Virus record (IMG/VR): IMGVR_UViG_3300032116_000951
Location: 1 to 30,110 of that record
Source of the DNA: a virus
DNA length: 30,110 bases
Reading direction: 5' to 3' (one strand)
The position numbers and the translations under genes are program-made. This document shows positions 12,576-30,110 of the stretch, piece by piece (within the stretch, counting starts at the first letter, position 1; the number at the start of each line of letters is the position of its first letter). A model generated the notes under the pieces. The model had not been told where the DNA came from and searched no databases. It saw only the letters and a list, made by a program, of their open reading frames with translations.

Positions 12576-12732
12576 AAGTTATTCTATCTTTGTTTAAAGA
12601 ATTAAGTTTCAAATTAATTTCTGTAGGCGATAATGACTTAAATTTATTGTATGCTTCTAAATCATTATCAGCTTCTACAATTGCAGAACCTTCAACGTAA
12701 CAATATCCATATACTTTAAAAGTATATCTCAT
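12544..12732 (-). CDS. 62-residue protein, DpnD/PcfM-like beta-beta-alpha outline
   Basis: The N-terminus alternates hydrophobic and polar residues (YTFKVYGYCYVEGSAIVEA), followed by a helix (DNDLEAYNKFKSL) and a charged tail. This order resembles small DpnD/PcfM-like domains, but the match is weak. It starts by ATGA overlap with the gene upstream. Function unknown. Confidence 0.45.
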   Translation of the reverse strand: MRYTFKVYGYCYVEGSAIVEADNDLEAYNKFKSLSPTEINLKLNSLNKDRITYEVIKDVKPV

Positions 12733-13055
12733 AGATTATTTTTGCGTCTTGATGCTTCTAATGTTCTCCAAACATCAATAACTAAACATTCTTTAGCTCT
12801 TTTGTTTTGAGTAATTCCAACCTTTTCTGCTAAAGCTTGTTTCTGTAATATGTATTCTCCATATACATCTGAAGCATAATAAGCTTGTTCTTTTATAGAA
12901 AAAGATTTGTCATTACTATTGCTAACAATATGTATTGCCTTATCTCGTTTTTGTTTGTCTTTTAAATATTCCAAACCTGCACCTAACTTAGCATCTTCTT
13001 CATCAGTATCTGCTAAGAACTTTAAAGCTTCTTCTAATCTTTTTTCATTAATCAT
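12729..13055 (-). CDS. Conserved helical protein of phage recombination cluster
   Basis: 108 residues, mostly helical and charged. Landmarks are EEDAKLGAGLEYLKDKQKRDKAIHIV, a FSIKEQAYYASDVYGEYI middle and the end LVIDVWRTLEASRRKNN. The same scheme (xxDExxAxLxA, KEREAYARAS, EVWRSLxAxRRxxN) is familiar from a phage family of unknown role that lies beside single-strand annealing and exonuclease genes. Here it follows an OB-fold-like protein and a RecB/Cas4-like nuclease, so a part in phage DNA recombination or replication is plausible. Its leader contains the hairpin at 13071-13122. Confidence 0.55.
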   Translation of the reverse strand: MINEKRLEEALKFLADTDEEDAKLGAGLEYLKDKQKRDKAIHIVSNSNDKSFSIKEQAYYASDVYGEYILQKQALAEKVGITQNKRAKECLVIDVWRTLEASRRKNNL

Positions 13056-13070
13056 AATTTTATTTGTTTA

Positions 13071-13122
13071 CACACCCCTGTACTAACTAACAAAGGGAGA
13101 CCACTTGAAATACAAGGGTGCG
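13071..13122 (-). repeat. Intercistronic inverted repeat; hairpin in leftward RNA
   Basis: Arms 13071-13082 and 13111-13122 pair over 12 positions with a 28-base loop. The two imperfect pairs (C13078 with A13115, A13072 with C13121 on the plus strand) become G-U wobbles only in the leftward RNA, so the structure favours that transcript. It lies 16 bases upstream of the leftward start at 13055. No T-run follows, so it is not a standard terminator. Confidence 0.5.
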
Positions 13123-13133
13123 TATGTTGTTAA

Positions 13134-13619
13134 TTAAAATGGTGCTTTCTCAGAACCATCCTCTTGTGTAGAGAGAATATCTCTAACAACTTTATCACAA
13201 GCTTTATAAACATCGTCATATTCTTGTACACTTCTGTTAGGAAGAATACTTGATAATAAATTTGACATAGTTAATCTGTATTTCTCAGACCAATTAGTAT
13301 TTGGCATTTGTGCTGAAAATGTTTTTACTGCTGGTGCAGCATGTCCATTAGTTTGCATAGTATCTCCTTTATCATTAGTTACATTTAACGGTTCTATTTT
13401 TACACAAGTCTGATTGTTGCTTCCTGGTTTTTTAATTACATAACCAGTAACTCTAACTTTATCATTCTTGCTAATATGACGACAGCTTTGGTCAACGAAT
13501 AATTTTCGTTCAATACCATTTTCCATTTCTACAGCTAACCAGTATTTAACTGGATTTTCTGCATCATGGATATCCTTAACTCCTTTTACTGTTGCGTCAT
13601 ACGTTTCTGTATTTGCCAT
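13134..13619 (-). CDS. Putative OB-fold single-stranded DNA-binding protein
   Basis: 161 residues from ATG 13619, which has an AAGGA site upstream; a longer frame to 13742 would run into the nuclease gene and is unlikely. The N-terminal half is a run of strands (YDATVKGVKDI, KYWLAVEMENG, RKLFVDQSCRHI, DKVRVTGYVIKK, QTCVKIEPLNV; about 5-80), the build of an OB fold. The C-terminal half is polar. The neighbouring nuclease and recombination-type gene support ssDNA binding, but no family signature proves it. Confidence 0.45.
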   Translation of the reverse strand: MANTETYDATVKGVKDIHDAENPVKYWLAVEMENGIERKLFVDQSCRHISKNDKVRVTGYVIKKPGSNNQTCVKIEPLNVTNDKGDTMQTNGHAAPAVKTFSAQMPNTNWSEKYRLTMSNLLSSILPNRSVQEYDDVYKACDKVVRDILSTQEDGSEKAPF

Positions 13620-13686
13620 GTTTTGTTTTCCTTGTTTGTTTATATGTTTAACTATATTACCTATTTTTTGCATAATTAGAATATAC

Positions 13687-14454
13687 TTATTTCCAAGCTT
13701 TTTGCCAGATTTCTTTTGCAAAAATCTTAGCATCGCTATCACCTTTGCCCCATCTAAAGTTTTCTAAATTTAGTGGGAACATTCTAACTACATCTTCTTT
13801 TGTTTTAGCAATAGAAGTTATATGCTCTATAGTTTTAAAAGCATTTATCATCTCATCTAATGATGAATCTAAATGCTCTATTTCTACAGCTTCAGTATCG
13901 TTATAAGAACAATACAATAACATTGTTTGTTTCTTAAAGATTTCCTTGTATAGAAATTGCTGTCTAACGTCTGATGGTTTTGGGTACCAATTTTTATCTA
14001 ATGCACCAGACTTTAATCTTTTAAGATAAGCAGTAGCTTTAGTATCTATAATTATATCTTTAAATTCAAAATCTGTTTTGCAACATATATCATGTTTCAA
14101 ACCATATGGTTTTCCTGGAACTTGAATTTCTTTTTGATATGATAACACATCACCAAATGATATTAATGAATCTTTAAATCGTACAGCAATCTTAGCTGCC
14201 ATTTCTGATTCATCATCATCATCTGATCCACCAAGTTCCCGGAACTTCTTTTGAGTAAACTCATGTATTGTATCTTCATCATATGCTTCTTTTTGTATTG
14301 CGTTCATAGCACCTTCTTCAGCTGCTGAACCCATTATCATTCTAGCATTTGGTTTAGATTCAAATTGATATAGTTCATTAATGATCCAGTATGGTGGCGA
14401 ATCAATAAATGAATTGCCTTTACTGGCAGTATGTCTGTAATCTTTTTCTAACAT
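13687..14454 (-). CDS. PD-(D/E)XK nuclease, RecB/Cas4-like exonuclease
   Basis: 255 residues. Motifs in order: RMIMGSAAEEGA (39-50), corresponding to the GxxxH motif but with Glu46 where His is usual; HDICCKTDF with Asp122; IIIDTKAT with Asp137 and Lys139 as the catalytic core; and Q165...Y169 in DVRQQFLYKE, the QxxxY motif of RecB-family nucleases. Predicted to process DNA ends, probably feeding phage recombination with the downstream genes. ATG 14454 is preceded by AGGAGA. It is the first gene of a leftward operon opposite the regulator gene at 14757. Confidence 0.75.
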   Translation of the reverse strand: MLEKDYRHTASKGNSFIDSPPYWIINELYQFESKPNARMIMGSAAEEGAMNAIQKEAYDEDTIHEFTQKKFRELGGSDDDDESEMAAKIAVRFKDSLISFGDVLSYQKEIQVPGKPYGLKHDICCKTDFEFKDIIIDTKATAYLKRLKSGALDKNWYPKPSDVRQQFLYKEIFKKQTMLLYCSYNDTEAVEIEHLDSSLDEMINAFKTIEHITSIAKTKEDVVRMFPLNLENFRWGKGDSDAKIFAKEIWQKAWK

Positions 14455-14500
14455 TTAGTCTCCTATGGTTAATAATATACAATGTTTCATTTCAAATCAC

Positions 14501-14518
14501 TTTGATATTCCTATCAAA
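14501..14518. promoter_or_regulatory. Operator-like perfect dyad TTTGATA-4-TATCAAA
   Basis: Perfect 7-base arms around a TTCC spacer, centred about 55 bases upstream of the nuclease ATG. The size and symmetry fit the binding site of a dimeric helix-turn-helix repressor; the window encodes an XRE protein at 20569-20889 and a ribbon-helix-helix protein at 16966-17175 that could bind it. Assignment to either is inference. Confidence 0.5.
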
Positions 14519-14594
14519 ATACTTAAAGGACAACAAGAATTTAATAATAATAAACATTATAATTATTATAATATCTCTATCCTTTTATCTTACC

Positions 14595-14627
14595 TTTTAA
14601 ACCCTACTAAAAAGTATGGGGTTAAAA
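14595..14627. repeat. Imperfect inverted repeat TTTTAAACCC/GGGGTTAAAA
   Basis: Ten-base arms with one mismatch. An inner TAC/GTA pair extends the stem around a six-base A-rich loop. It may form a hairpin in the rightward leader RNA or act as a protein site; no T-run follows it. Confidence 0.4.
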
Positions 14628-14649
14628 GTATTATTCACAGATTGCATAA

Positions 14650-14674
14650 TTGCACTTCTACAAATAGAGTGCAA
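14650..14674. repeat. Inverted repeat TTGCACT-11-AGTGCAA
   Basis: Perfect seven-base arms separated by 11 bases, 83 bases upstream of the rightward regulator ATG at 14757. The arm-to-arm spacing places the half-sites about two helical turns apart, which suits a dimeric regulator on one DNA face. No other copy was noticed in the window. Confidence 0.4.
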
Positions 14675-14756
14675 AGACTACATAAACAATATAATAACAA
14701 CTCCGAGTTTAAATTGTTTATTGATAAATTAATCGAATTATTTTATAATAGTAAAT

Positions 14757-15224
14757 ATGCAACGACCAGAATTGATAACTCGAATAGTTGATAAGAAAAC
14801 TGTTCTATACAATATCCGAGAATCAAGACTGGAATATATGTTTCATCGTAAACATATTTCTGAAGCTCAATATATTTCTGGCTCTAGATACAGACGACTA
14901 TGTGAGATATCACAATTAGGATCTGGTGTTTCTAATATGCAACCACGCATAGATGGTTACTATGATGCTATGCTTTCACGTGTTGGTGCTTTATCTGAGC
15001 TTGTTAAAATCTCACAAGAAATAGGACCAGAAGCTGTACACTTCCTTAAATTTTATTGTTGGGAAAATTATTCTATTCTTGAATTATCTAATCTACTTAA
15101 CATTAGTAAGAAAAAGATTTCTTATAGAGTACAAGAATCTTTATCTAGATTAGCTATTTATTTTGGTTACATTAAAGTAAGAAATACTATAAAAGGTATT
15201 GGTGCAAAAAACCACAAAGTTTAA
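14757..15224 (+). CDS. DUF6456/sigma region 4-like regulator
   Basis: 155 residues. The C-terminal part reads GPEAVHFLKFYCWENYSILELSNLLNISKKKISYRVQESLSRLAIYFGY (about 90-138), a helix-turn-helix like sigma region 4 and close in outline to the alphaproteobacterial DUF6456 domain. The middle has a YRRLCEISQLGSG...PRIDGYYDAML pattern also found there. It probably binds DNA and may switch phage promoters. It is first in a short rightward operon; its 3' end overlaps the HNH gene by 23 bases. Start at ATG 14757 without a clear Shine-Dalgarno site. Confidence 0.6.
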   Translation: MQRPELITRIVDKKTVLYNIRESRLEYMFHRKHISEAQYISGSRYRRLCEISQLGSGVSNMQPRIDGYYDAMLSRVGALSELVKISQEIGPEAVHFLKFYCWENYSILELSNLLNISKKKISYRVQESLSRLAIYFGYIKVRNTIKGIGAKNHKV

Positions 15225-15576
15225 ATCTAAGAAGTATTTAAAATGGGTAGCTTCACTACCTTGTTTGCTTTGCCTTTATAATGAGTGCCAAGCACATCAT
15301 ATTACTATTGCTGAAAAGCGAGGCTTTAGTCAAAAAGTATCTGATAAGTTTACTATTCCTTTATGTTATGTTCATCATCATCAATTACATATGTTATCTG
15401 AACGTAAGTTCTGGAATACTTTAGGCTTAAATCCTGTAGATTATGCTAATATTTTGTATGATATCTATACAAAAGATGAGATAAATAACGAAGTTTTAAT
15501 TTATCAACAAATCTATAACAAAGTTTTACCACTTGTTAAAGATCACGTTGACTTTCTATGTCGTCTCAAAGTATAA
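15202..15576 (+). CDS. Ref-like HNH nuclease
   Basis: About 124 residues. There is no usable ATG: the start is GTG 15202 (AAAAGG five bases upstream) or TTG 15199. The sequence KYLKWVASLPCLLCL (about 11-25), QAHHIT (about 30-35), DKFTIPLCYVHHHQLHM (about 48-64) and RKFWNTLG matches the RecA-dependent nuclease Ref / phage HNH recombination family. The Cys pair CxxC and the PLCxxHHxxLH block form the metal site. In P1, Ref cuts DNA inside RecA-made D-loops. A recombination or DNA-processing role is likely here. Confidence 0.75.
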   Translation: MQKTTKFKSKKYLKWVASLPCLLCLYNECQAHHITIAEKRGFSQKVSDKFTIPLCYVHHHQLHMLSERKFWNTLGLNPVDYANILYDIYTKDEINNEVLIYQQIYNKVLPLVKDHVDFLCRLKV

Positions 15577-15610
15577 ACGTAGTTATCCTTCGAATTATTG
15601 TTTTTAAATT

Positions 15611-16018
15611 ATGGCTAAAATTCTAAAATTCAAACGTAAGTCTTTTGCTGAAGATTTTATTAAACACGTTAAACCTGATAAAATAGCAGACTTCGTTCAA
15701 AAAGATAATCCTAAACTGCCTAGCAACATTGTTGATGCTATGGCTCTAGCTATGATTTATACTACTTACTTACAATTGCTTATAGATGAAGAATCTATAC
15801 CAGCATCTGATGTTGTTTTTGGTGGTTCATCATTTCCATTTGAAATGAATGAATTTAAAGAATTAACTCCGTCAATTTGTCATACTCAAGGTTGGATATT
15901 TGAGGAGACTAAAACTTATATAAAAACTTTTAGTACTTACAGTATTGATCCTGAAGATAATTCTATTGAATTTGGAGAGATACTTTGTATTCCAAAAGTT
16001 TGGTTAAAACTCAGGTAG
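15611..16018 (+). CDS. Hypothetical protein, end of the rightward early operon
   Basis: 135 residues with a basic N-terminus (KILKFKRKSF), a helical middle (NIVDAMALAMIYTTYLQLLIDEE, about 39-61) and a C-terminal part rich in Phe, Glu and Ile. No family is recognised. It converges with the leftward gene ending at 16004, overlapping it by 15 bases, so the two transcripts meet inside coding DNA. Confidence 0.5.
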   Translation: MAKILKFKRKSFAEDFIKHVKPDKIADFVQKDNPKLPSNIVDAMALAMIYTTYLQLLIDEESIPASDVVFGGSSFPFEMNEFKELTPSICHTQGWIFEETKTYIKTFSTYSIDPEDNSIEFGEILCIPKVWLKLR

Positions 16019-16264
16019 TTTTTTTAAAGGATCAGTAATATCTTCATCACTAATATATTCTATTCCTTCTAACCAAGCCATTTCTTTTTTTGTTTCTACA
16101 ATTTCTTTTTTAACTAGACTCTTAGCTTCATCAAGTTTGCTTACCAAGACTGGAAAATTCTGTTCGTATATTCCATAAATGTATAAATCACTTATCGCAG
16201 ATGCGACTCTTGATAAGCCTTTGAATCGTTTTTGCAAACGAGTATGCCTTGAGTCATCAAACAT
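16004..16264 (-). CDS. Hypothetical helical protein, last gene of the long leftward operon
   Basis: 86 residues, largely helical: a basic head (RHTRLQKRFKGLSRVASAI), a middle IYEQNFPVLVSKLDEAKSLVKKEIVETKKEM and an acidic tail with DEDITDPLKKLPEF. The start is the ATG of a TAATG overlap with the upstream coiled-coil gene. Function unknown. Confidence 0.5.
   Translation of the reverse strand: MFDDSRHTRLQKRFKGLSRVASAISDLYIYGIYEQNFPVLVSKLDEAKSLVKKEIVETKKEMAWLEGIEYISDEDITDPLKKLPEF
16006..16025 (+). terminator. Weak terminator-like hairpin at convergent gene ends
   Basis: AAAACT-CAGGT-AGTTTT followed by further T's (seven T's in a row at 16019-16025). The stem has six pairs, only one of them G-C, so it is weak, but it sits exactly on the stop codon of the rightward gene, where a terminator is expected. 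Confidence 0.35.
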
Positions 16265-16431
16265 TAATCTGTACCACCAACTTTAATATCTTCATCAGGT
16301 AAATGAGATTCACCTTCTAACTTTGCAATACGATCTTTAAGTTTTTCTATTTTCTTTTTAAGAGTTTCTCTTTCGTTTAATAGTTTATTAATATTTGCTT
16401 GAAGTATTTTCATTTTAGGATCTACGTTCAT
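16264..16431 (-). CDS. 55-residue coiled-coil protein
   Basis: A leucine-zipper-like heptad pattern runs from about residue 10 to 40 (ILQANINKLLNERETLKKKI, then KLKDRIAKLEG), ending in an acidic tail. It is below the usual gene-length cut-off, but both borders are typical of this operon: ATGA overlap with the gene above and TAATG overlap with the gene below. It may be a small dimerising or adaptor protein. Confidence 0.6.
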   Translation of the reverse strand: MNVDPKMKILQANINKLLNERETLKKKIEKLKDRIAKLEGESHLPDEDIKVGGTD

Positions 16432-16622
16432 AGTACATTCACTTTCTCTTGGTTAATTTGATTTTCATTTTTTAATTTATTTGCAATACTTATTAAAGTA
16501 TCTTTATCTTCAGTATGCAAATACCCTTTGTTTATACACATTTCAATACTATTAATTAATATTGATAAAGTATTTATTTTCATTTGCTCTCTATAAAGCA
16601 TTTCTTGAAATGAGTCTTTCAT
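16428..16622 (-). CDS. Hypothetical small helical protein
   Basis: 64 residues from ATG 16622, chosen because it overlaps the upstream stop as ATGA; a longer frame starts at 16658 but runs inside the DUF3846 gene. Helical (SFQEMLYREQMKINTLSILINSIEM) with a charged tail. No family recognised. Confidence 0.5.
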   Translation of the reverse strand: MKDSFQEMLYREQMKINTLSILINSIEMCINKGYLHTEDKDTLISIANKLKNENQINQEKVNVL

Positions 16623-16966
16623 GTTCTTGATCCGAATTGTTTTGTATCTTCCACACATGATTTGCTTTCATCATACACTATAGCTACATTACCTGCAATA
16701 AAATCTCCTGGAATACACATATGTCCAGTTTTTTCTTGCCAGTCATACCATAAATCTGTAGCGATTTCGTTGTATTTTATTGGTTCTTTTAATTTAGATT
16801 CTTCATCACAATACATATCAATGGTCTTACCATTTTCTACTCCTTGTAGAATCTCTATTGTATCACAATTTAATAAAGGGTAGAGTTCTTTAAATGTTGG
16901 CTCTTTGTCAAACATATGTACTGTTTGTGTTCTTGGTTCTGCATTTAGTATAACTACTTTGTACAT
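16619..16966 (-). CDS. DUF3846 family protein
   Basis: 115 residues with the features of DUF3846: FKELYPLLNCDTIEILQG (about 25-42), a MYCDEESKLKEP block (about 51-62), IATDLWYDW (about 68-76) and GDFIAGNVAIVYDE (about 87-100). The family occurs in phages and plasmids and has no established activity. AAGGAG stands upstream of ATG 16966, which also overlaps the stop of the ribbon-helix-helix gene. Confidence 0.75.
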   Translation of the reverse strand: MYKVVILNAEPRTQTVHMFDKEPTFKELYPLLNCDTIEILQGVENGKTIDMYCDEESKLKEPIKYNEIATDLWYDWQEKTGHMCIPGDFIAGNVAIVYDESKSCVEDTKQFGSRT

Positions 16967-17175
16967 TACTTGTTCTCCTTTTGTTTTGTTTCGTTTAAAT
17001 AGTTTCTTATTAAGACTTTAATTACTCCAGACATTGTATAATTTTTTAAATTACAATATTCTCTAAACTCTTTATACAAATCATCTGTTAATGTTATGCC
17101 TAATACTCCGTATCTGTTTACCCATTTACGTTTAGATTTAACATTAAGCTCATTGTTTATTTGTTCTATATCCAT
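16966..17175 (-). CDS. Ribbon-helix-helix DNA-binding protein
   Basis: 69 residues. After a basic N-terminus (VKSKRKWVNRYG) comes GITLTDDLYKEFREYC (strand then helix A), a NYTMSGVIKVLIRNYL helix B, and a charged tail. This is the MetJ/Arc/CopG fold, in which a strand pair reads the DNA major groove. It is probably a dimeric repressor or a small host-directed regulator. The start lies 10 bases inside the gene above. Confidence 0.65.
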   Translation of the reverse strand: MDIEQINNELNVKSKRKWVNRYGVLGITLTDDLYKEFREYCNLKNYTMSGVIKVLIRNYLNETKQKENK

Positions 17176-17354
17176 TCTTCTCTCAATAGTTTAGTTATTA
17201 GTTTTAATGCTGCTTGATCTTTAATAAATTCTTTTCCGTGATAATCACCAAATTCATTACGATCATAGATATGTCTTGAACTCCAGAATATATCATACTT
17301 CCATTCTTCCCATTTATCTAATAACTTTTGTTTATTTTTTATATTAAGTTTCAT
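17166..17354 (-). CDS. Hypothetical 62-residue protein
   Basis: Basic N-terminus (KLNIKNKQKLLDKWEEWKYD), an aromatic middle (IFWSSRHIYDRNEFGDYHG) and a helical end (AALKLITKLLREEW). The start overlaps the stop of the upstream gene as ATGA. No family is recognised. Confidence 0.45.
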   Translation of the reverse strand: MKLNIKNKQKLLDKWEEWKYDIFWSSRHIYDRNEFGDYHGKEFIKDQAALKLITKLLREEWI

Positions 17355-17581
17355 AGTATTAGTTCTTCACTTTCTGGTTCAGGTTTATAATACTTAGATT
17401 TTTTGCTTATTCTTTCATAAGCAGCTAATCTGTATTTTACATATTTATAAGTTCGAATATCTTTTTGACTCGACTGATGTCCAAGCATTTCAGTTGCCAT
17501 TAAATATGATTTAATTATTCTGTAAGCTTGACTAAGATATTCTATATCTACTTTTATTTGTGGTTTTGTTTTTATTCCCAT
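17351..17581 (-). CDS. Hypothetical 76-residue protein
   Basis: From ATG 17581 (a second ATG lies two codons earlier at 17587). Lys/Tyr-rich, with helices IEYLSQAYRIIKSYLMATEML and KDIRTYKYVKYRLAAYERI, and an acidic end. The overlap with its upstream neighbour is 10 to 16 bases depending on the start. No family is recognised. Confidence 0.45.
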   Translation of the reverse strand: MGIKTKPQIKVDIEYLSQAYRIIKSYLMATEMLGHQSSQKDIRTYKYVKYRLAAYERISKKSKYYKPEPESEELIL

Positions 17582-17778
17582 ATACATTGATACATAAAAA
17601 CTTCACTACCTTTATAAAAAGTAGCTTGTTGTTTATTGCCTTTATAGTTTTTAACAGTTTTTGAATAAGTTATTTCAGTAAACTTTTTATCACAATCACT
17701 AAATGATGTTGAATTGTTTACTGGTATTGATAACTGTGATCCATTCATAAATGTTAATATTATAGCTATTGTTTTCAT
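17572..17778 (-). CDS. Hypothetical 68-residue protein, possibly exported
   Basis: The N-terminus is MKTIAIILTF followed by polar residues, a very short hydrophobic stretch that could act as a weak signal but lacks a clear cleavage site. Two Cys (about positions 29 and 65) could form a disulfide if the protein is exported. It starts with TAATG overlap at 17778. Function unknown. Confidence 0.4.
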   Translation of the reverse strand: MKTIAIILTFMNGSQLSIPVNNSTSFSDCDKKFTEITYSKTVKNYKGNKQQATFYKGSEVFMYQCIWE

Positions 17779-17939
17779 TAATCTAAATACTTTCGTATTT
17801 TGCTTTTAACGATATCAACCCAATCGTAAAATTCTTTAAAATAATTACGATACTCTTTACTTCTTTTTTTCTTGATTTCTTCAAAAGCTTCTTTTGTAGC
17901 TTTATCTAGAATCTTTAGTTGTTTTACTGGATTTAACAT
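17778..17939 (-). CDS. 53-residue basic helical protein
   Basis: The frame reads MLNPVKQLKILDKATKEAFE, then EIKKKRSKEYRNYFKEFYDW and a basic tail. It is preceded by AAAGGA five bases before ATG 17939 and ends in a TAATG overlap with the next gene, good signs that it is real despite its length. No family is recognised. Confidence 0.6.
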   Translation of the reverse strand: MLNPVKQLKILDKATKEAFEEIKKKRSKEYRNYFKEFYDWVDIVKSKIRKYLD

Positions 17940-18108
17940 TATTCCTTTCTTGAAGTTCGGTAGTTGCCTGTGGCTCTACAGAACTTGTTAGTTTCTGTCT
18001 GATTTTTTTATGCAAAACTTTTTGCCATTTCTGATTAGTTTTTTTGTCATCAGAAAATGTTAACACTTGCACGTGTTCATTTAACCACTTTTGCAATTGA
18101 TCTTTCAT
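17902..18108 (-). CDS. Hypothetical 68-residue protein
   Basis: Start at ATG 18108, preceded by GGAG at a proper distance; the frame could open at 18120. Lys/Gln-rich with KDQLQKWLNEHVQVLTF at the front and a low-complexity Ser/Lys/Thr tail. The tail overlaps the next gene by 38 bases and may not be under selection. Function unknown. Confidence 0.45.
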   Translation of the reverse strand: MKDQLQKWLNEHVQVLTFSDDKKTNQKWQKVLHKKIRQKLTSSVEPQATTELQERNNVKSSKTTKDSR

Positions 18109-18457
18109 TTTTATCTCCATATAGTTTACTTAAGTTTCTGGCTTTTGACATCCATTCAACTGGAGTTAAGTTACTTAACCAGTCGCTTACGGATGGTATA
18201 TAGCCACAATCTTCTATTACATGCTGTTCAGCAATTAATTTAACTGGAACGTGCTTTCCAGTATTAAGTACTATGTAATCACCAAACTCATTAATACATT
18301 CCTGTATTCCTAATGAGTGGTGTCTTAATGCTCTATGTCTAAAGTCTGGATGAAAAGCTTTAGTGAAATCGAACCAATTATGGATTCGAAGATAATCATC
18401 TAAAGTTCCACCCCATTTACTTACACTTGATTGAGCATGATATACTGGTGTTGCCAT
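18077..18457 (-). CDS. DUF6915 family protein
   Basis: 126 residues. The order HAQSSVSKWGGTLDDYLRIH (7-26), DFTKAFHPDFRHRALRHHSLG (30-50), INEFGDYIV, VPVKLIAEQHVIEDCGYIPSVSDWL (about 70-94) follows the DUF6915 pattern that I know from alphaproteobacterial phages and genomes. The string of conserved His (FHPDFRHRALRHH, EQH) suggests metal binding, but the activity is unknown. AAAGGAA precedes ATG 18457, which also overlaps the upstream TAA. Confidence 0.75.
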   Translation of the reverse strand: MATPVYHAQSSVSKWGGTLDDYLRIHNWFDFTKAFHPDFRHRALRHHSLGIQECINEFGDYIVLNTGKHVPVKLIAEQHVIEDCGYIPSVSDWLSNLTPVEWMSKARNLSKLYGDKNERSIAKVVK

Positions 18458-18639
18458 TATTTATTTCCTTTATGTATTTTGTTTAATAACTTATTTATTA
18501 AACGTTCATAACGTTCATCGTTTAAACCAGTTTCATTGTCTTGCAGATACTTAGGTTGAATTACATCAAACCATTCTTGTAAAGCATCTACAAGATCTTG
18601 AACTTCTTTTTGAGTAAAGTTTATAATCATATTATTCAC
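18457..18639 (-). CDS. Hypothetical 60-residue protein
   Basis: Helical, acidic-to-neutral: FTQKEVQDLVDALQEWFDV, a DNETGLNDERYERLI turn and a basic end. It overlaps the DUF6878-like gene above by 8 bases and its stop touches the next ATG. No family is recognised. Confidence 0.5.
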   Translation of the reverse strand: MNNMIINFTQKEVQDLVDALQEWFDVIQPKYLQDNETGLNDERYERLINKLLNKIHKGNK

Positions 18640-19207
18640 TCAAAGTTACACTTATTCTGCCTGAACTTTTTAAAGGTTGCCATTCTTCTATTGTTTCATT
18701 GCCTTCTAGTTTGTATTCTCCAGTAATTACATTTAGTAATACTGTACCATTTACATTAAACTCACCAGCAAATGAACCAAATTGATCTAATGCACCAAGT
18801 TTCCAAAAAATATCATCTAAGCTGATATTTTCTAATGTTTCATATTTACATTCATCATAGTAAAAAACATCTATTTTTTTTACTCCCTTGTCTGCATCAT
18901 CATATTGTCTTTTAACTAATGTTCTTGTGTAATAAGATTTATTAACACAATCTGTTAATTTAACTTCGTTTTTATTTTTATCTAACCAAACAAAACTATC
19001 ATATCCACCTTCATCATGCCCACCTGAAAATTCAGCTTCAGCATATTGAATGTTTAATCTCTTAAATTCTTCTGCGAATCCTTCAAGATAATTTGATATG
19101 TTTTTTTCGTTTATTTGTTTAGTTAATTGTCTTTGTCTTTCGTAATAATTACCACCACGTTTTGGATTTTTTATAGTTTCTAAAAAATTTATTACTGTAT
19201 ATATCAT
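18632..19207 (-). CDS. DUF6878-like protein
   Basis: 191 residues. The early YAEAEFSGGHDEGGYDSFVW (about 54-73) resembles the FxGGGDSG motif of DUF6878-type proteins, and the gene is followed closely by a DUF6915 gene. The C-terminal half is beta-rich (FAGEFNVNGTVLLNVITGEY, about 143-162, then ISVTLSE). AAGGATAAC precedes ATG 19207. The family name is from memory and the role is unknown. Confidence 0.5.
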   Translation of the reverse strand: MIYTVINFLETIKNPKRGGNYYERQRQLTKQINEKNISNYLEGFAEEFKRLNIQYAEAEFSGGHDEGGYDSFVWLDKNKNEVKLTDCVNKSYYTRTLVKRQYDDADKGVKKIDVFYYDECKYETLENISLDDIFWKLGALDQFGSFAGEFNVNGTVLLNVITGEYKLEGNETIEEWQPLKSSGRISVTLSE

Positions 19208-19253
19208 TGTTATCCTTTTGTTATGGGCATTGTTTATAGAATGTTAATTCATT

Positions 19254-19287
19254 CACCAGGAATAATTTTAATTGGATTTCCTGGATG
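19254..19287 (-). repeat. Intercistronic inverted repeat (CCAGGAA/TTCCTGG)
   Basis: Perfect seven-base arms at 19256-19262 and 19278-19284, extended outward by two pairs with one bulged base. It lies in the 115-base gap between two leftward genes. The same gap holds a direct repeat of AAACCC (19294 and 19308). There is no T-run, so it is probably an RNA structure and not an intrinsic terminator. Confidence 0.5.
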
Positions 19288-19322
19288 GTATTTAAACCCT
19301 TAATCCCAAACCCATTATTAGT

Positions 19323-19928
19323 TTATTTATCTAATTGAAGCATAGCTTTAGGAGCTTGTACTTCAATACTAGCTTTTTTAAATGTATTACCAAGATATTT
19401 CCAAACATCTTGTATGCTTTGTCCAGAATATAAAATATTCTGAGCTTCTTCTTGCATTACATCTAAAATCTTTTTTTCTTTAAACTTATCTGATCTTTCA
19501 ATAAGTTTAGTAGTTTCATCTGCACATTTTTCACGTAAATAATATTTTACGTTGTTTACATTTTGAAACCAATCATCACTTTTAGTACGAAGTCTAGTAT
19601 CTGAATCTTCATTATCCCATCTTCGTAATGATTGCCATTTTTCTAAACTTCTTTTTAACTTTTCACCAGTATCTGCAACAGCTGCACGTAACTTACTTTC
19701 GTAATTATCTTTGCTTTCTTGAAACCTTGTAAGTTTTTCTTTTGCAGCTTCTACAGCTTTTAAGTCTTTTTCAAGACCTAATTTGCTTATAAAAGTTTTA
19801 AAGTTTTTCTCTATAGTTTTATTAGTTTCTAGATGTATTTCAGACTCTATTTTTTTACGTCTTTCAATAAACTTATCTTTGACGTATTTTTCTAAATACT
19901 CTAGTTCATTTTTTCTGATAGGTATCAT
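19323..19928 (-). CDS. Hypothetical coiled-coil protein
   Basis: 201 residues, highly charged and mostly helical. Heptad-like stretches occur at about 5-60 (LEYLEKYVKDKFIERRKKIE) and 60-105 (KAVEAAKEKLTRFQESKDNY); the C-terminal third contains DVWKYLGNTFKKASIEV. AAGGA precedes ATG 19928. It is among the longest products of the leftward operon, flanked by gaps with hairpins on both sides, so it may be expressed as its own unit. Function unknown. Confidence 0.5.
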   Translation of the reverse strand: MIPIRKNELEYLEKYVKDKFIERRKKIESEIHLETNKTIEKNFKTFISKLGLEKDLKAVEAAKEKLTRFQESKDNYESKLRAAVADTGEKLKRSLEKWQSLRRWDNEDSDTRLRTKSDDWFQNVNNVKYYLREKCADETTKLIERSDKFKEKKILDVMQEEAQNILYSGQSIQDVWKYLGNTFKKASIEVQAPKAMLQLDK

Positions 19929-19943
19929 ACATTCCTTTTAGTT

Positions 19944-19981
19944 TAGGGTACTGATCACTTGTAGGTACAATCAATACCCTA
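19944..19981 (-). repeat. Intercistronic inverted repeat (TAGGGTA/TACCCTA)
   Basis: Seven-base perfect arms (19944-19950, 19975-19981) enclose an inner TGAT/ATCA pair (19952-19955, 19970-19973). In the leftward RNA the positions between and inside these pairs become G-U wobbles, giving a nearly continuous stem of about 15 pairs around an eight-base loop. On the plus strand they are C-A mismatches. It sits 16 bases upstream of ATG 19928. Confidence 0.55.
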
Positions 19982-19989
19982 TTGTTTAT

Positions 19990-20271
19990 TTATGCTGACT
20001 CAGATAGATTAGTAATTGACTTTTCAGACAATTTAATCATTTGTTCAGCAGTTTGTTTTGTTGCTTCACTTGCATCCATTCGTGAACATACACGGATGAA
20101 TAACGTAGTTGCAGATGTTTTTTGGCCCATTGGGTCCAACGCAGCTAATATCTTATTGCTCTTTACAGCAGTATGACATGTAGCTAATAAATGTGCGTAA
20201 TAATCACACATTTTGCTATATTTATCTGCCACTCTCTCTTGTTGAGATTTAGTCAGCTTTTCTGTTGACAT
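19990..20271 (-). CDS. Hypothetical 93-residue helical protein
   Basis: A charged head (TEKLTKSQQERVADKYSKMC) leads to YYAHLLATCHTAVKSNKIL, a LDPMGQKTSATTLFIRVCSR middle and a Lys/Glu-rich end. Three Cys are present. A GAGAAAAAAGAAG purine stretch precedes ATG 20271. No family is recognised. Confidence 0.45.
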   Translation of the reverse strand: MSTEKLTKSQQERVADKYSKMCDYYAHLLATCHTAVKSNKILAALDPMGQKTSATTLFIRVCSRMDASEATKQTAEQMIKLSEKSITNLSESA

Positions 20272-20422
20272 CTTCTTTTTTCTCTTTCTTCCTGATTTCG
20301 AATGGTAATTCTACTTCATCAGGCATATTGTTTATTACAGCATTGAATAATCCAATACTGATTCTCACAGGTAGTGTAAGAATTTTTACTGTGTTATTTT
20401 TTATGTTGTCTATGTTTTTCAT
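20249..20422 (-). CDS. 57-residue protein, unrecognised
   Basis: A short gene easily missed because it overlaps both neighbours (29 and 23 bases). It reads MKNIDNIKNNTVKILTLPVR, then ISIGLFNAVINNMPDEVELP and a basic/acidic tail. Without it the 122 bases between 20272 and 20393 would be an unexplained gap in a tightly packed operon. The ISIGLFNAVINN helix may be amphipathic or membrane-associated. Function unknown. Confidence 0.55.
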   Translation of the reverse strand: MKNIDNIKNNTVKILTLPVRISIGLFNAVINNMPDEVELPFEIRKKEKKEDVNRKAD

Positions 20423-20594
20423 ATTTTTTATTTAACCTTTCTAGTTTACTTTGAGTTTCACGATATTCTTGTGCAAACTCCTTCGTTCCTGGAATTGGAT
20501 CGACATCTTTGGTGAGCCAATCCCAGCTCTTTTTAGTTACTATGCCTAATAGAGTGAAACCTACATATTTAACTATGTGGAATAACGGATTCAT
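20394..20594 (-). CDS. Membrane-anchored small coiled-coil protein
   Basis: 66 residues. A hydrophobic segment (HIVKYVGFTLLGIV, about 6-19) is followed by a Trp/Pro linker and a charged helix (EYRETQSKLERLNKKYEKH). AGGGAA lies upstream of ATG 20594. One membrane pass with a cytoplasmic or periplasmic coil is predicted. It overlaps the XRE gene by 26 bases. Confidence 0.5.
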   Translation of the reverse strand: MNPLFHIVKYVGFTLLGIVTKKSWDWLTKDVDPIPGTKEFAQEYRETQSKLERLNKKYEKHRQHKK

Positions 20595-20889
20595 TATTTA
20601 TTTCCCTTTCTATTCTGGCAAATTTTGCGTTAACTCTACTTTGTTCATGCACAGTCAAATCAATAAATTGATTAGGATCTTGCTTGAACTGGTTTAAGTC
20701 TAACCCAAAATGCTTTGCTAGTGTTAACAAATGACCGCATCTCATACGATTCTTAGCAGTCTCGTATTTATCATATTGTTGGTATGCTACCCCCATTATG
20801 TTTGCCATTTGTGTTAATGTTTTTTTCATTTTTTTTCTGATCAGATACAGATGCTTTGCTATCTGAATATCTTCTGTGTTTTTTCTCAT
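20569..20889 (-). CDS. XRE/Cro-CI family transcription regulator
   Basis: 106 residues from ATG 20889 (an earlier start at 20910 would add seven residues). The helix-turn-helix reads IRKKMKKTLTQMANIMGVAYQQYDKYETAKNRMRCGHLLTLAKHFGLD (about 17-64), with LTQMANIMGV as the scaffold and positioning helix and YQQYDKYE as the recognition helix. The YQQxxKYE...NR style is common in alphaproteobacteria. It likely controls the divergent promoters at 22252-22528 and perhaps 14455-14756. The 5' part overlaps the neighbouring gene by 119 bases. Confidence 0.8.
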   Translation of the reverse strand: MRKNTEDIQIAKHLYLIRKKMKKTLTQMANIMGVAYQQYDKYETAKNRMRCGHLLTLAKHFGLDLNQFKQDPNQFIDLTVHEQSRVNAKFARIEREINNESVIPHS

Positions 20890-21199
20890 ATATTTCTTTC
20901 GCTGTACCAAAGAGTGATTTTAATACAAACAGCTCTCTTTTTTCGCTGCTTGTTTTTGATGTAACTACTCTTATGGTGTTTGGCTCTTTTGATTTATGAT
21001 TTAGACGTATAACAACTAAATATCCTTGTTTAGGATATAAGATTGATTGATACGTCATGTGTTCAATATACGGAGTCCACCATTTCATTCTCTCCTGTTG
21101 TATAAAGCCACCAAATGGTAGGCTATATACTATTTCAAGAGATCGTTTTAATGGGACTCTCTTGTTTTTGAACCTGTTCTTTAATGTTATCACGTACAT
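20771..21199 (-). CDS. Hypothetical 142-residue protein
   Basis: Start taken at ATG 21199. The N-terminal 100 residues have a folded look, with YVITLKNRFKNKRVPLKRSL, SLPFGGFIQQERMKWWTPY and PKQGYLVVIRLNHKSKEP. The last 40 are low complexity (SDSKASVSDQKKNEKNINTN) and lie wholly over the 5' end of the XRE gene. The tail may be a read-through extension or a frameshifted remnant. No family is recognised. Confidence 0.45.
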   Translation of the reverse strand: MYVITLKNRFKNKRVPLKRSLEIVYSLPFGGFIQQERMKWWTPYIEHMTYQSILYPKQGYLVVIRLNHKSKEPNTIRVVTSKTSSEKRELFVLKSLFGTAKEIYEKKHRRYSDSKASVSDQKKNEKNINTNGKHNGGSIPTI

Positions 21200-21311
21200 T
21201 GTTTTCAACCCATTTCTGAAGTTCACAGTATAGTCTGTATTTAACTTCGCTATCTGCCATTGAATCTATTAATGCTAATAATTCTTTGGCTTGATTTTCT
21301 TTGTTAAACAT
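21135..21311 (-). CDS. 58-residue helical protein
   Basis: Starts by TAATG overlap with the membrane gene above. It reads FNKENQAKELLALIDSMADS, then EVKYRLYCELQKWVENNVRD and a Lys/Gln tail that overlaps the next gene by 65 bases. Two amphipathic helices are predicted. Function unknown. Confidence 0.5.
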   Translation of the reverse strand: MFNKENQAKELLALIDSMADSEVKYRLYCELQKWVENNVRDNIKEQVQKQESPIKTIS

Positions 21312-21493
21312 TATTTAATCTCCATTTTATAAAGTCGCATATTAATATCTTCTAACTTTTGATTTACTCTCATAAGTGTCATATTAATATTCTGTCTTTC
21401 TTCGGACTCTCTCATAAATTGTACGACTAGTATTAAAAATAATACAGTCTGTATTAGTAATAATGCTATCATCATGATTGTATTTGTTTCCAT
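21311..21493 (-). CDS. Single-pass membrane protein with coiled tail
   Basis: 60 residues. The N-terminal helix (TIMMIALLLIQTVLFLILVV, about 4-23) spans the membrane; the rest (ERQNINMTLMRVNQKLEDIN) is a heptad-like helix. Its leader carries the 21508 hairpin. The layout (N-terminal anchor then coil) recalls spanin-like or i-spanin-shaped proteins, but it lies in the leftward operon away from the lysis genes, so this is only a thought. Confidence 0.55.
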   Translation of the reverse strand: METNTIMMIALLLIQTVLFLILVVQFMRESEERQNINMTLMRVNQKLEDINMRLYKMEIK

Positions 21494-21507
21494 ATATTTA
21501 TTGTTTA

Positions 21508-21536
21508 GTTAACCCCTACGCAAGGCAGGGGCTAAC
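21508..21536 (-). repeat. Intercistronic inverted repeat (GTTAACCCCT/AGGGGCTAAC)
   Basis: Ten-base arms with one imperfect pair, which is A-C on the plus strand and a G-U wobble in the leftward RNA; nine-base loop. It lies 14 bases upstream of ATG 21493. No T-run follows it in the leftward direction. Confidence 0.55.
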
Positions 21537-21546
21537 GATTTCTGAT

Positions 21547-21720
21547 TTATTCAGCAGTTAATCTTACTGCGATATCCTTTAATAGATTCTCTATGCTTTC
21601 AAGTTTTTCATCTTGAGCAATTAATCTATTATGAAGTACTTTAGGTATTAGAATACCAGCTTGTACTTTCTTGACATAATCACTATTCATGTCAATTGGC
21701 TTGTTTGTATAGTCACTCAT
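21547..21720 (-). CDS. 57-residue protein, unrecognised
   Basis: The frame reads MSDYTNKPIDMNSDYVKKVQ, then AGILIPKVLHNRLIAQDEKL and a helical end. ATAGGAG lies upstream of ATG 21720, a good site. Start and stop are each next to a hairpin (21746 and 21508), so it may be on a separately processed RNA. Function unknown. Confidence 0.6.
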   Translation of the reverse strand: MSDYTNKPIDMNSDYVKKVQAGILIPKVLHNRLIAQDEKLESIENLLKDIAVRLTAE

Positions 21721-21745
21721 AGGTTCTCCTATTGTTAGTTATTTT

Positions 21746-21783
21746 GGGTTAATACCCAATCACTTGTGTTGGGTTATTTACCC
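21746..21783 (-). repeat. Intercistronic inverted repeat spanning a stop codon
   Basis: Arms 21746-21759 and 21769-21783 pair as six, three and four pairs interrupted by a bulge and one mismatch, around a nine-base loop. It covers the stop of the gene ending at 21774 and lies 25 bases before ATG 21720. It is similar in place and size to the other leftward hairpins. Confidence 0.5.
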
Positions 21784-21926
21784 TTTCTTTCTTGTTCTTT
21801 TCTATATTCAATATCAAATTCTTTTTCTTCTTTGAATTTTATATAGATGTTATAAGCCGCCATTAAAACGGCAAACAACAGTCCAAGAAATACTATAGTC
21901 ATTACTACTCCATAGAATATACTCAT
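21774..21926 (-). CDS. 50-residue single-pass membrane protein
   Basis: A hydrophobic helix at about residues 4-26 (VVMTIVFLGLLFAVLMAAYN) is followed by a highly charged tail with alternating Lys and Glu. The start overlaps the upstream stop as ATGA and has AGGAG seven bases upstream. It is a phage membrane microprotein of unknown role. Confidence 0.6.
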   Translation of the reverse strand: MSIFYGVVMTIVFLGLLFAVLMAAYNIYIKFKEEKEFDIEYRKEQERKGK

Positions 21927-22285: not shown

Positions 22286-22310
22286 ATTGATTATTAACAA
22301 TCAATAATCA
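22286..22310. promoter_or_regulatory. Operator-like nested dyads
   Basis: ATTGATT-6-AATCAAT (22286-22305) is a perfect seven-base inverted repeat; overlapping it, TGATTATT-7-AATAATCA (22288-22310) is a perfect eight-base one. Nested symmetry beside divergent promoters is typical of a repressor site. It shares the TTGAT half-site core with the dyad at 14501. Confidence 0.5.
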
Positions 22311-22345
22311 GTTGCGTTCCCTCACAAAGTGAGGGGAACAGCAAC
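22311..22345. repeat. Strong hairpin next to the operator
   Basis: Fifteen pairs in three blocks (7, 3 and 5) with two single-base bulges and an AAA loop; the tip stem CCCTCAC/GTGAGGG is GC-rich in otherwise AT-rich DNA. No T-run follows on either side, so it is not a simple terminator. Confidence 0.55.
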
Positions 22346-22386: not shown

Positions 22387-22435
22387 CTTTCTAACAAGAA
22401 AGTGAAGTTGGGTGGGTTTTGCTCGAACCCCCAAC
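22387..22435. repeat. Two further hairpins in the late leader
   Basis: CTTTCT-AACA-AGAAAG (22387-22402), then a 10-pair stem with a two-base bulge and seven-base loop (22407-22435; arms GTTGG-GT-GGGTT and AACCCCCAAC). If rightward transcription starts near 22390 or earlier, one or both would be in the 5' leader of the late RNA. Confidence 0.5.
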
Positions 22436-22528
22436 GAGATAGCAGTAGTAAAATAGTAATGAAAGAGGGGGGTTTTGTATTAAACTCCATAACTTTAACA
22501 AAAACAACAATAATAGAAAGGTAAATAT

Positions 22529-29970: not shown

Positions 29971-29983
29971 TATATAACTTGAG

Positions 29984-30013
29984 GGGGAGAGCAATCTCCC
30001 CTTCTTTAACTTT
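29984..30013 (+). terminator. Intrinsic terminator after the major capsid gene
   Basis: GGGGAGA-GCAA-TCTCCCC is a seven-pair GC-rich stem with a GCAA tetraloop (29984-30001), followed by a T-rich run. It begins 14 bases after the capsid stop codon. Partial termination would lower expression of genes after the capsid gene. Confidence 0.8.
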
Positions 30014-30014
30014 T

Positions 30015-30052
30015 GTTTGGTCTTTGAAGTCTAAAGACGGAACGAAGCAAAC
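30015..30052 (+). ncRNA. Structured RNA element before the next late gene
   Basis: GTTTG (30015-30019) pairs with CAAAC (30048-30052) and encloses a GTCTTT/AAAGAC hairpin (30020-30025 with 30033-30038, seven-base loop), leaving a one-sided internal loop GGAACGAAG. It ends 13 bases before ATG 30066. The shape suggests a regulatory or processing site, but it matches no element I can name. Confidence 0.35.
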
Positions 30053-30065
30053 ATAGGAAAACAAA

Positions 30066-30110
30066 ATGAGAACATTAAACGACTACTTTTTAACTGCTAG
30101 ATTAGCCGAT
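30066..30110 (+). CDS. Head-decoration/structural protein (partial, 5' end)
   Basis: Fifteen codons to the window end: MRTLNDYFLTARLAD. This start is, from memory, typical of small proteins encoded right after SU10-type capsid genes in pelagiphages and relatives, thought to be head-decoration or virion proteins. AGGAAA lies before the ATG. Only the N-terminus is visible. Confidence 0.55.
   Translation, partial: MRTLNDYFLTARLAD

Follow-up and report, generated by a model that had tools for sequence, protein, structure and literature searches.

What function is served by the inverted repeats that lie in five gaps between the leftward genes of a marine phage, and to which of the flanking genes do they belong? 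Few regulatory signals have so far been recognised in the streamlined phages that infect the most abundant bacteria of the ocean. The window, meaning the whole stretch of DNA analysed (30,110 nucleotides), comes from an uncultured phage; this 30.1-kb fragment encodes terminase, portal, scaffold and major capsid proteins, and its portal protein shares 50% identity with that of Pelagibacter phage HTVC106P. The phage group comprises uncultured viruses infecting the ocean bacterium SAR11 (pelagiphages). Structural genes are oriented rightward, and the leftward block consists of small, mostly overlapping genes; more than half of the early junctions surveyed (255/482) overlap. Most of the leftward genes tested gave no family match, and two early proteins compared with isolated phages had no match there. 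Within gene 15611-16018, about 95 nt found in close relatives are missing at 15846-15848, possibly owing to a deletion in this contig. A search of the literature returned no transcriptome for this phage group, the pelagiphage RNA-seq study concerning other phage types (PMC12753301).

Genes were called with our own gene finder and families were built by BLAST clustering. Distant relatives were collected through scans with a 93-aa and a 108-aa protein and were mostly 30-70% identical. For z-scores, the leftward RNA was folded and compared with 200 dinucleotide shuffles. The window and seven relatives were also compared with Rfam, and nothing reached gathering score.

Table 1. Hairpins and the genes preceding them in the window (z, folding z-score).
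Feature	Position	Strand	Context	z
Hairpin, 16-bp stem, large loop	13069..13124	-	3' of stop of gene 13134-13742, before gene 12729-13055	-3.9
Branched RNA domain (closing helix and three hairpins)	19208..19322	-	3' of stop of gene 19323-19928	
Hairpin, 2-nt 5' bulge, CUACAA loop	19944..19981	-	3' of stop of gene 19990-20271	-3.3
Hairpin, 12 bp	21508..21536	-	3' of stop of 57-aa gene 21547-21720	-5.3
Hairpin spanning a stop codon	21746..21783	-	End of holin-like gene 21774-21926; whole repeat folded, stop codon included	-3.3
Gene upstream of hairpin 13071	13134..13742	-	Start possibly 13673; no Pfam or PHROG match	
Gene upstream of domain 19254, 201 aa	19323..19928	-	Trailing hairpin in 14/14 of family	
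Gene upstream of hairpin 19944, 93 aa	19990..20271	-	Trailing hairpin in 19/20 of family	
Gene upstream of hairpin 21508, 57 aa	21547..21720	-	Trailing hairpin in 11/11 of family	
Gene upstream of hairpin 21746, 50 aa	21774..21926	-	Weak holin match; stop codon inside hairpin	
Hairpin A, GCAA tetraloop	29981..30004	+	3' of major capsid gene	
Hairpin B, conserved AA/GGAA internal loop	30015..30052	+	Just 5' of 115-aa head-protein gene (start 30066)	

All five inverted repeats listed in a preliminary description of this DNA were recovered at their places (Table 1). As leftward RNA, those at 13071, 19944, 21508 and 21746 were more stable than every one, or almost every one, of the 200 shuffles. 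The hairpin described at 19254-19287 is weak by itself (gap z -1.1 to -1.5) and proved to be one helix within a branched domain (19208-19322, about 100-115 nt), the stability of which is not unusual in itself. Among the rightward intergenic gaps of the window, comparable structure was found only 3' of the capsid gene. Consistent with the same description, no T-run follows any of the five hairpins, and the arms differ in sequence among all five, so that the shared sequence expected among copies of a REP-like dispersed repeat is missing; the 9-mer ACAAGTGAT is common to hairpins 19944 and 21746. A candidate loop motif, CAAGTGRT, occurs eight times in the window (1.85 expected), with only three occurrences within these hairpins, and was rejected, also because relatives do not retain it at every position. 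For hairpin 13071, a pseudoknot between loop and tail was considered and likewise discarded, as it is broken in relative L155. Strong hairpins were additionally observed at 22286-22345 and 22405-22440, where the leftward and rightward blocks of genes diverge; few 60-nt stretches of the window are more stable than the former (-26.8 kcal/mol as leftward RNA).

The two strands of a repeat fold differently where G-U pairs of one RNA correspond to A-C mismatches in the other. The claim that hairpins 13071, 19944 and 21508 carry such positions in favour of the leftward RNA was borne out: this RNA is 4-10 kcal/mol stabler through its G-U pairs (-23.7 vs -13.8, -16.7 vs -12.7 and -19.8 vs -12.1 kcal/mol, leftward vs rightward). 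The strands do not differ at 19254 (-9.5/-10.5) or 21746 (-14.7/-15.0), for which no such claim had been made. In a survey of early gaps (25-170 nt, 78 independent cases), 62% of those measuring 45-80 nt folded at z < -2, and the gene-sense RNA was stabler in 35 of 39 structured gaps (binomial p = 3e-7). The same was true of 24/29 gaps between structural genes (p 5e-4), and unstructured gaps displayed no sense bias (12 vs 21). An initial run on a mixed gap set had not reached significance for early gaps (p 0.16), with 14 of 17 folded gaps favouring the sense strand. Since the sense strand is stabler in 35/39 structured gaps and unstructured gaps are unbiased, selection acts on the coding-strand RNA and not on double-stranded DNA alone, as had been proposed; compensatory changes lend this further support.

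In close relatives, the five gaps are nearly unchanged, with that at 21746 invariant and the 21508 stem showing only pair-keeping changes (G-U to G-C, C-G to U-G). In the 19254 domain of L138, each of two flanking helices has undergone a double change from A-U to G-C; in contig 27804 the domain shows two such changes, in two different helices. GC-rich hairpins occupy the corresponding place in distant relatives. Nearly all distant homologues of the 93-aa gene are followed by a hairpin with a different stem, such as GGGUAUUGAU..AUCAGUACCC, GGGUAGUUGCC..GGCGACUACCC, GGGUGAUG..CAUCACCC and others. Homologues of gene 13134 are trailed by hairpins in L164, L165, L170, L171, L161 and L121, the stems at this place including GUGCCUUUUAGA/UCUAAGAGGCAC, GUGCCACCUAGA/UCUAGGUGGUAC, AUGCCUCCUAGA/UCUAGGAGGUAU and GUACCUCUUAGA/UCUAGGAGGUAC; no hairpin was present there in L117, L184 and L187. 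The homologues of the 57-aa and 201-aa genes possess trailing hairpins of other sequence too, and the holin-like gene ends in an unrelated stop-spanning hairpin (GCAAUCA..UGAUUGC) in the distant phages L141, L142, L151 and L153. All five hairpin places are thus conserved, and their sequences are not.

The alignment of relatives called for in the preliminary description revealed covariation in the stems at 13071 and 19944 and in the two flanking helices of the 19254 domain. In the 13071-type alignment, 48/48 cells were paired, with double changes at 4 of 12 pairs, and compensatory changes were found at 4/13 pairs of the 19944-type positions. An automated covariation count agreed with the count by hand (94.5% paired vs 38-56% when slid). 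For the 19944 family, an indel was misplaced by MAFFT and the arms were therefore aligned by hand; with only six rows of hand-aligned arms, the double-change count was not above shuffles (P 0.26) and the paired fraction was (P < 0.001). The hairpins are, in short, folded coding-strand RNA whose place is conserved with compensatory changes. The 19944-type loops keep CUAC(A/C)A and the 2-nt bulge while the stems change. Similarly, a UCCCC-like core is kept in 13071-type loops of L161, L164, L165, L170, L171 and L188 with changing stems, which suggests that this core may be a recognised loop. In L085 (8256-8443; contig 3300027804_000279, identical in 3300018050_000523), a 188-nt insert lies directly 3' of the 21508-type hairpin. 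It is absent from the window and the other close relatives, has no Rfam match and folds into an RNA of several helices (z -5.75 when taken together with the hairpin).

Ownership of the hairpins was determined by a neighbour-swap test, in which, at junctions of the relatives, diverged members of one family (<=85% identity) with different genes on the other side were compared, pairs being counted rather than independent events. With the same upstream family and different downstream genes, 237 pairs shared a hairpin, 157 differed and 1106 lacked one; with the same downstream family and different upstream genes, the respective numbers were 2, 183 and 1203. Accordingly, the probability that the other copy has a hairpin was 0.75 by upstream family (base 0.21) and 0.02 by downstream family (base 0.07), from which it follows that hairpins travel with the preceding gene. 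The hairpin belongs to the upstream gene and is kept when the downstream neighbour is swapped. Presence per family amounted to 19/20, 14/14, 12/15 and 11/11, the 93-aa family (19/20) being followed by four downstream families and the 57-aa family (11/11) by seven. Among structural genes, a hairpin lies 3' of the gene in 16/16 members of the capsid family and in 15/15 of the 115-aa head-protein family, both of whose products are needed in bulk. The placement reported earlier is correct as to position, with the preceding stop codon and not the following start as the relevant anchor. The association with the downstream gene expected of a leader, attenuator or riboswitch was not seen (0.02 vs base 0.07).

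The median distance is 8 nt from the stop codon to the stem and 16 nt from the stem to the next start, so that the hairpins sit between the spaces of terminating and initiating ribosomes. Stems have a median length of 13 bp (10th-90th percentile 9-19; 12-16 bp at 13071, 19944 and 21508). Two features of a 3' stabiliser, a stable hairpin just 3' of the stop and ownership by the upstream gene, were found. The explanation that fits best, which we consider an even call, is that the hairpins mark the 3' ends of certain genes within long polycistronic phage messages and, by analogy with galE and puf, may be 3' exonuclease barriers that give each cistron its own mRNA stability. The phage message would be cut or ended downstream of the hairpin, by RNase E cleavage or Rho termination, and 3'-to-5' exonucleases would halt at the hairpin. 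The mRNA of the upstream cistron would then outlive its neighbours, and its product would be made in larger amounts; a need for higher expression of the early upstream genes is assumed here. An A-rich, U-poor tail would avoid intrinsic termination and leave the next ribosome site open. Of the functions previously suggested (processing, stabilisation or attenuation), stabilisation is still the best reading; attenuation, or any other role for the downstream gene, is disfavoured in that hairpin status follows the upstream family.

Other roles would also suit hairpins at these positions. In translational punctuation, the hairpin would hold back the terminating ribosome so that it does not slide on to the ribosome site that follows, keep that site unpaired and uncouple the genes. 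The spacing matches ribosome footprints on both sides (about 8 nt after the stop, about 16 nt before the start), the overlapping early junctions (255/482) may be coupled, and most gaps of 45-80 nt are structured. This reading is nevertheless rather unlikely, as an insulator would be expected wherever the same downstream gene needs uncoupling, yet hairpin status tracks the upstream gene only, and terminating ribosomes would melt the stop-spanning hairpin 21746. Conserved RNA helices in intergenic positions on one long message could equally be endonuclease processing sites that cut the message into units, like the RNase III sites between T7 early genes. A T7-type site has a helix of about 20 bp or more; the short stems found here (median 13 bp, 10th-90th percentile 9-19), with no internal loop or cleavage motif common to different positions, weaken the T7 analogy drawn earlier and make processing improbable. 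Recognition by an RNA-binding protein, encoded by phage or host and exerting joint control over the upstream cistrons, would account for the kept CUAC(A/C)A loop and 2-nt bulge of the 19944 type and the UCCCC-like core of the 13071 type. It is quite improbable nonetheless, given that loops differ between positions, no motif is common to all five and no candidate protein was identified.

Two further explanations, both very improbable, invoke transcription or the DNA itself. Transcription terminators or attenuators would be GC-rich intergenic hairpins like these, and a short U-rich tail does follow the hairpin of the capsid gene. The 8-nt sense tail of early hairpins, however, averages 1.2 T and contains at least five in 0/32 cases, below base composition, so that no U-tract follows the stem and ordinary intrinsic terminators are excluded; the antisense tail shows no clear enrichment, and in antisense the hairpin is less stable. 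Boundary sequences promoting gene exchange by recombination at the DNA level would agree with the frequent swapping of the downstream gene (9/10 for 13134, 8/8 for 21547) and with the 188-nt insert directly 3' of the 21508 hairpin in one lineage. Against this stand G-U pairs that favour the sense RNA strand, diverged stems that leave little shared sequence to recombine, and swaps that are also common at the overlap junctions in 16000-18600; hairpin-driven exchange was rejected, swapping being common elsewhere in the operon. If gene-specific 3' hairpins do set cistron dosage as exonuclease barriers, operon order and coupling would cease to predict expression, and the hairpins would offer a sequence-level guide to those uncharacterised early genes that have to be expressed strongly or separately. 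Both the neighbour-swap test and the test for strand asymmetry are applicable to any phage group without culture.

Among known systems, the RNase III sites of the T7 early genes are longer, irregular helices that separate the genes on a polycistronic message; the stems of the present group share this setting but are shorter (median 13 bp) and known from sequence alone. Phage T4 has stable C(UUCG)G intercistronic hairpins. Those described here are likewise stable and lie between phage genes, whereas the early region has no shared tetraloop and GNRA loops are confined to some structural-region hairpins. At the end of galE in E. coli, an 8-bp hairpin has been shown experimentally to block exonucleases (PMC11925234). 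This short hairpin at the galE-galT boundary also belongs to the cistron that precedes it and does not serve as a terminator (PMC11925234), but it is a single host case established via 3' RACE, while the phage hairpins are many, unrelated, keyed to gene families and seen only as sequence. In the puf operon of an alphaproteobacterium (Rhodobacter), an intercistronic hairpin has been tied to segmental mRNA stability, as far as the papers citing this work convey (Klug et al. 1987, cited in PMC6238624 and PMC11354728). On that account, the likeness lies in the alphaproteobacterial host, the intercistronic hairpin and the differing stability of adjoining mRNA segments; the difference lies in the lack of any sequence relation and in phage operons with hairpins after several genes of one operon.

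The rightward region 29971-30066 contains a two-hairpin RNA that is kept in about 40 distinct relatives, HTVC106P included. It had no Rfam match and possibly represents a new RNA family. The pairs of hairpin B covary; a model of this hairpin gave at most one match per contig, the window's own type being weak (E 0.12). In 25 relatives, the tetraloop of hairpin A is replaced by a larger loop that is complementary to loop B and covaries with it (ACCCUA:UAGGGU, AAUCCCA:UGGGAUU, ACCUC:GAGGU and UCUCCUU:AAGGAGA, read from the alignment as loop A:loop B). Phages with a different next gene have hairpin A only, which suggests that A is an element of the capsid gene and B one of the head protein. On a tentative and rather doubtful broader reading, the trailing hairpins could form a coordinated, group-specific post-transcriptional layer. 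The capsid/head element, with its invariant AA/GGAA internal loop and, in many phages, a covarying kissing loop between hairpins A and B, would then be a new RNA family that serves as an operator of translation and so fixes the ratio in which both head proteins are made. Short G-run/C-run hairpins, often with GNRA tetraloops (GCAA, GAAA), were also observed 3' of the 115-aa head-protein gene in relatives (15/15 members), for instance at 6504-6555 in L016 and 5114-5161 in L074.
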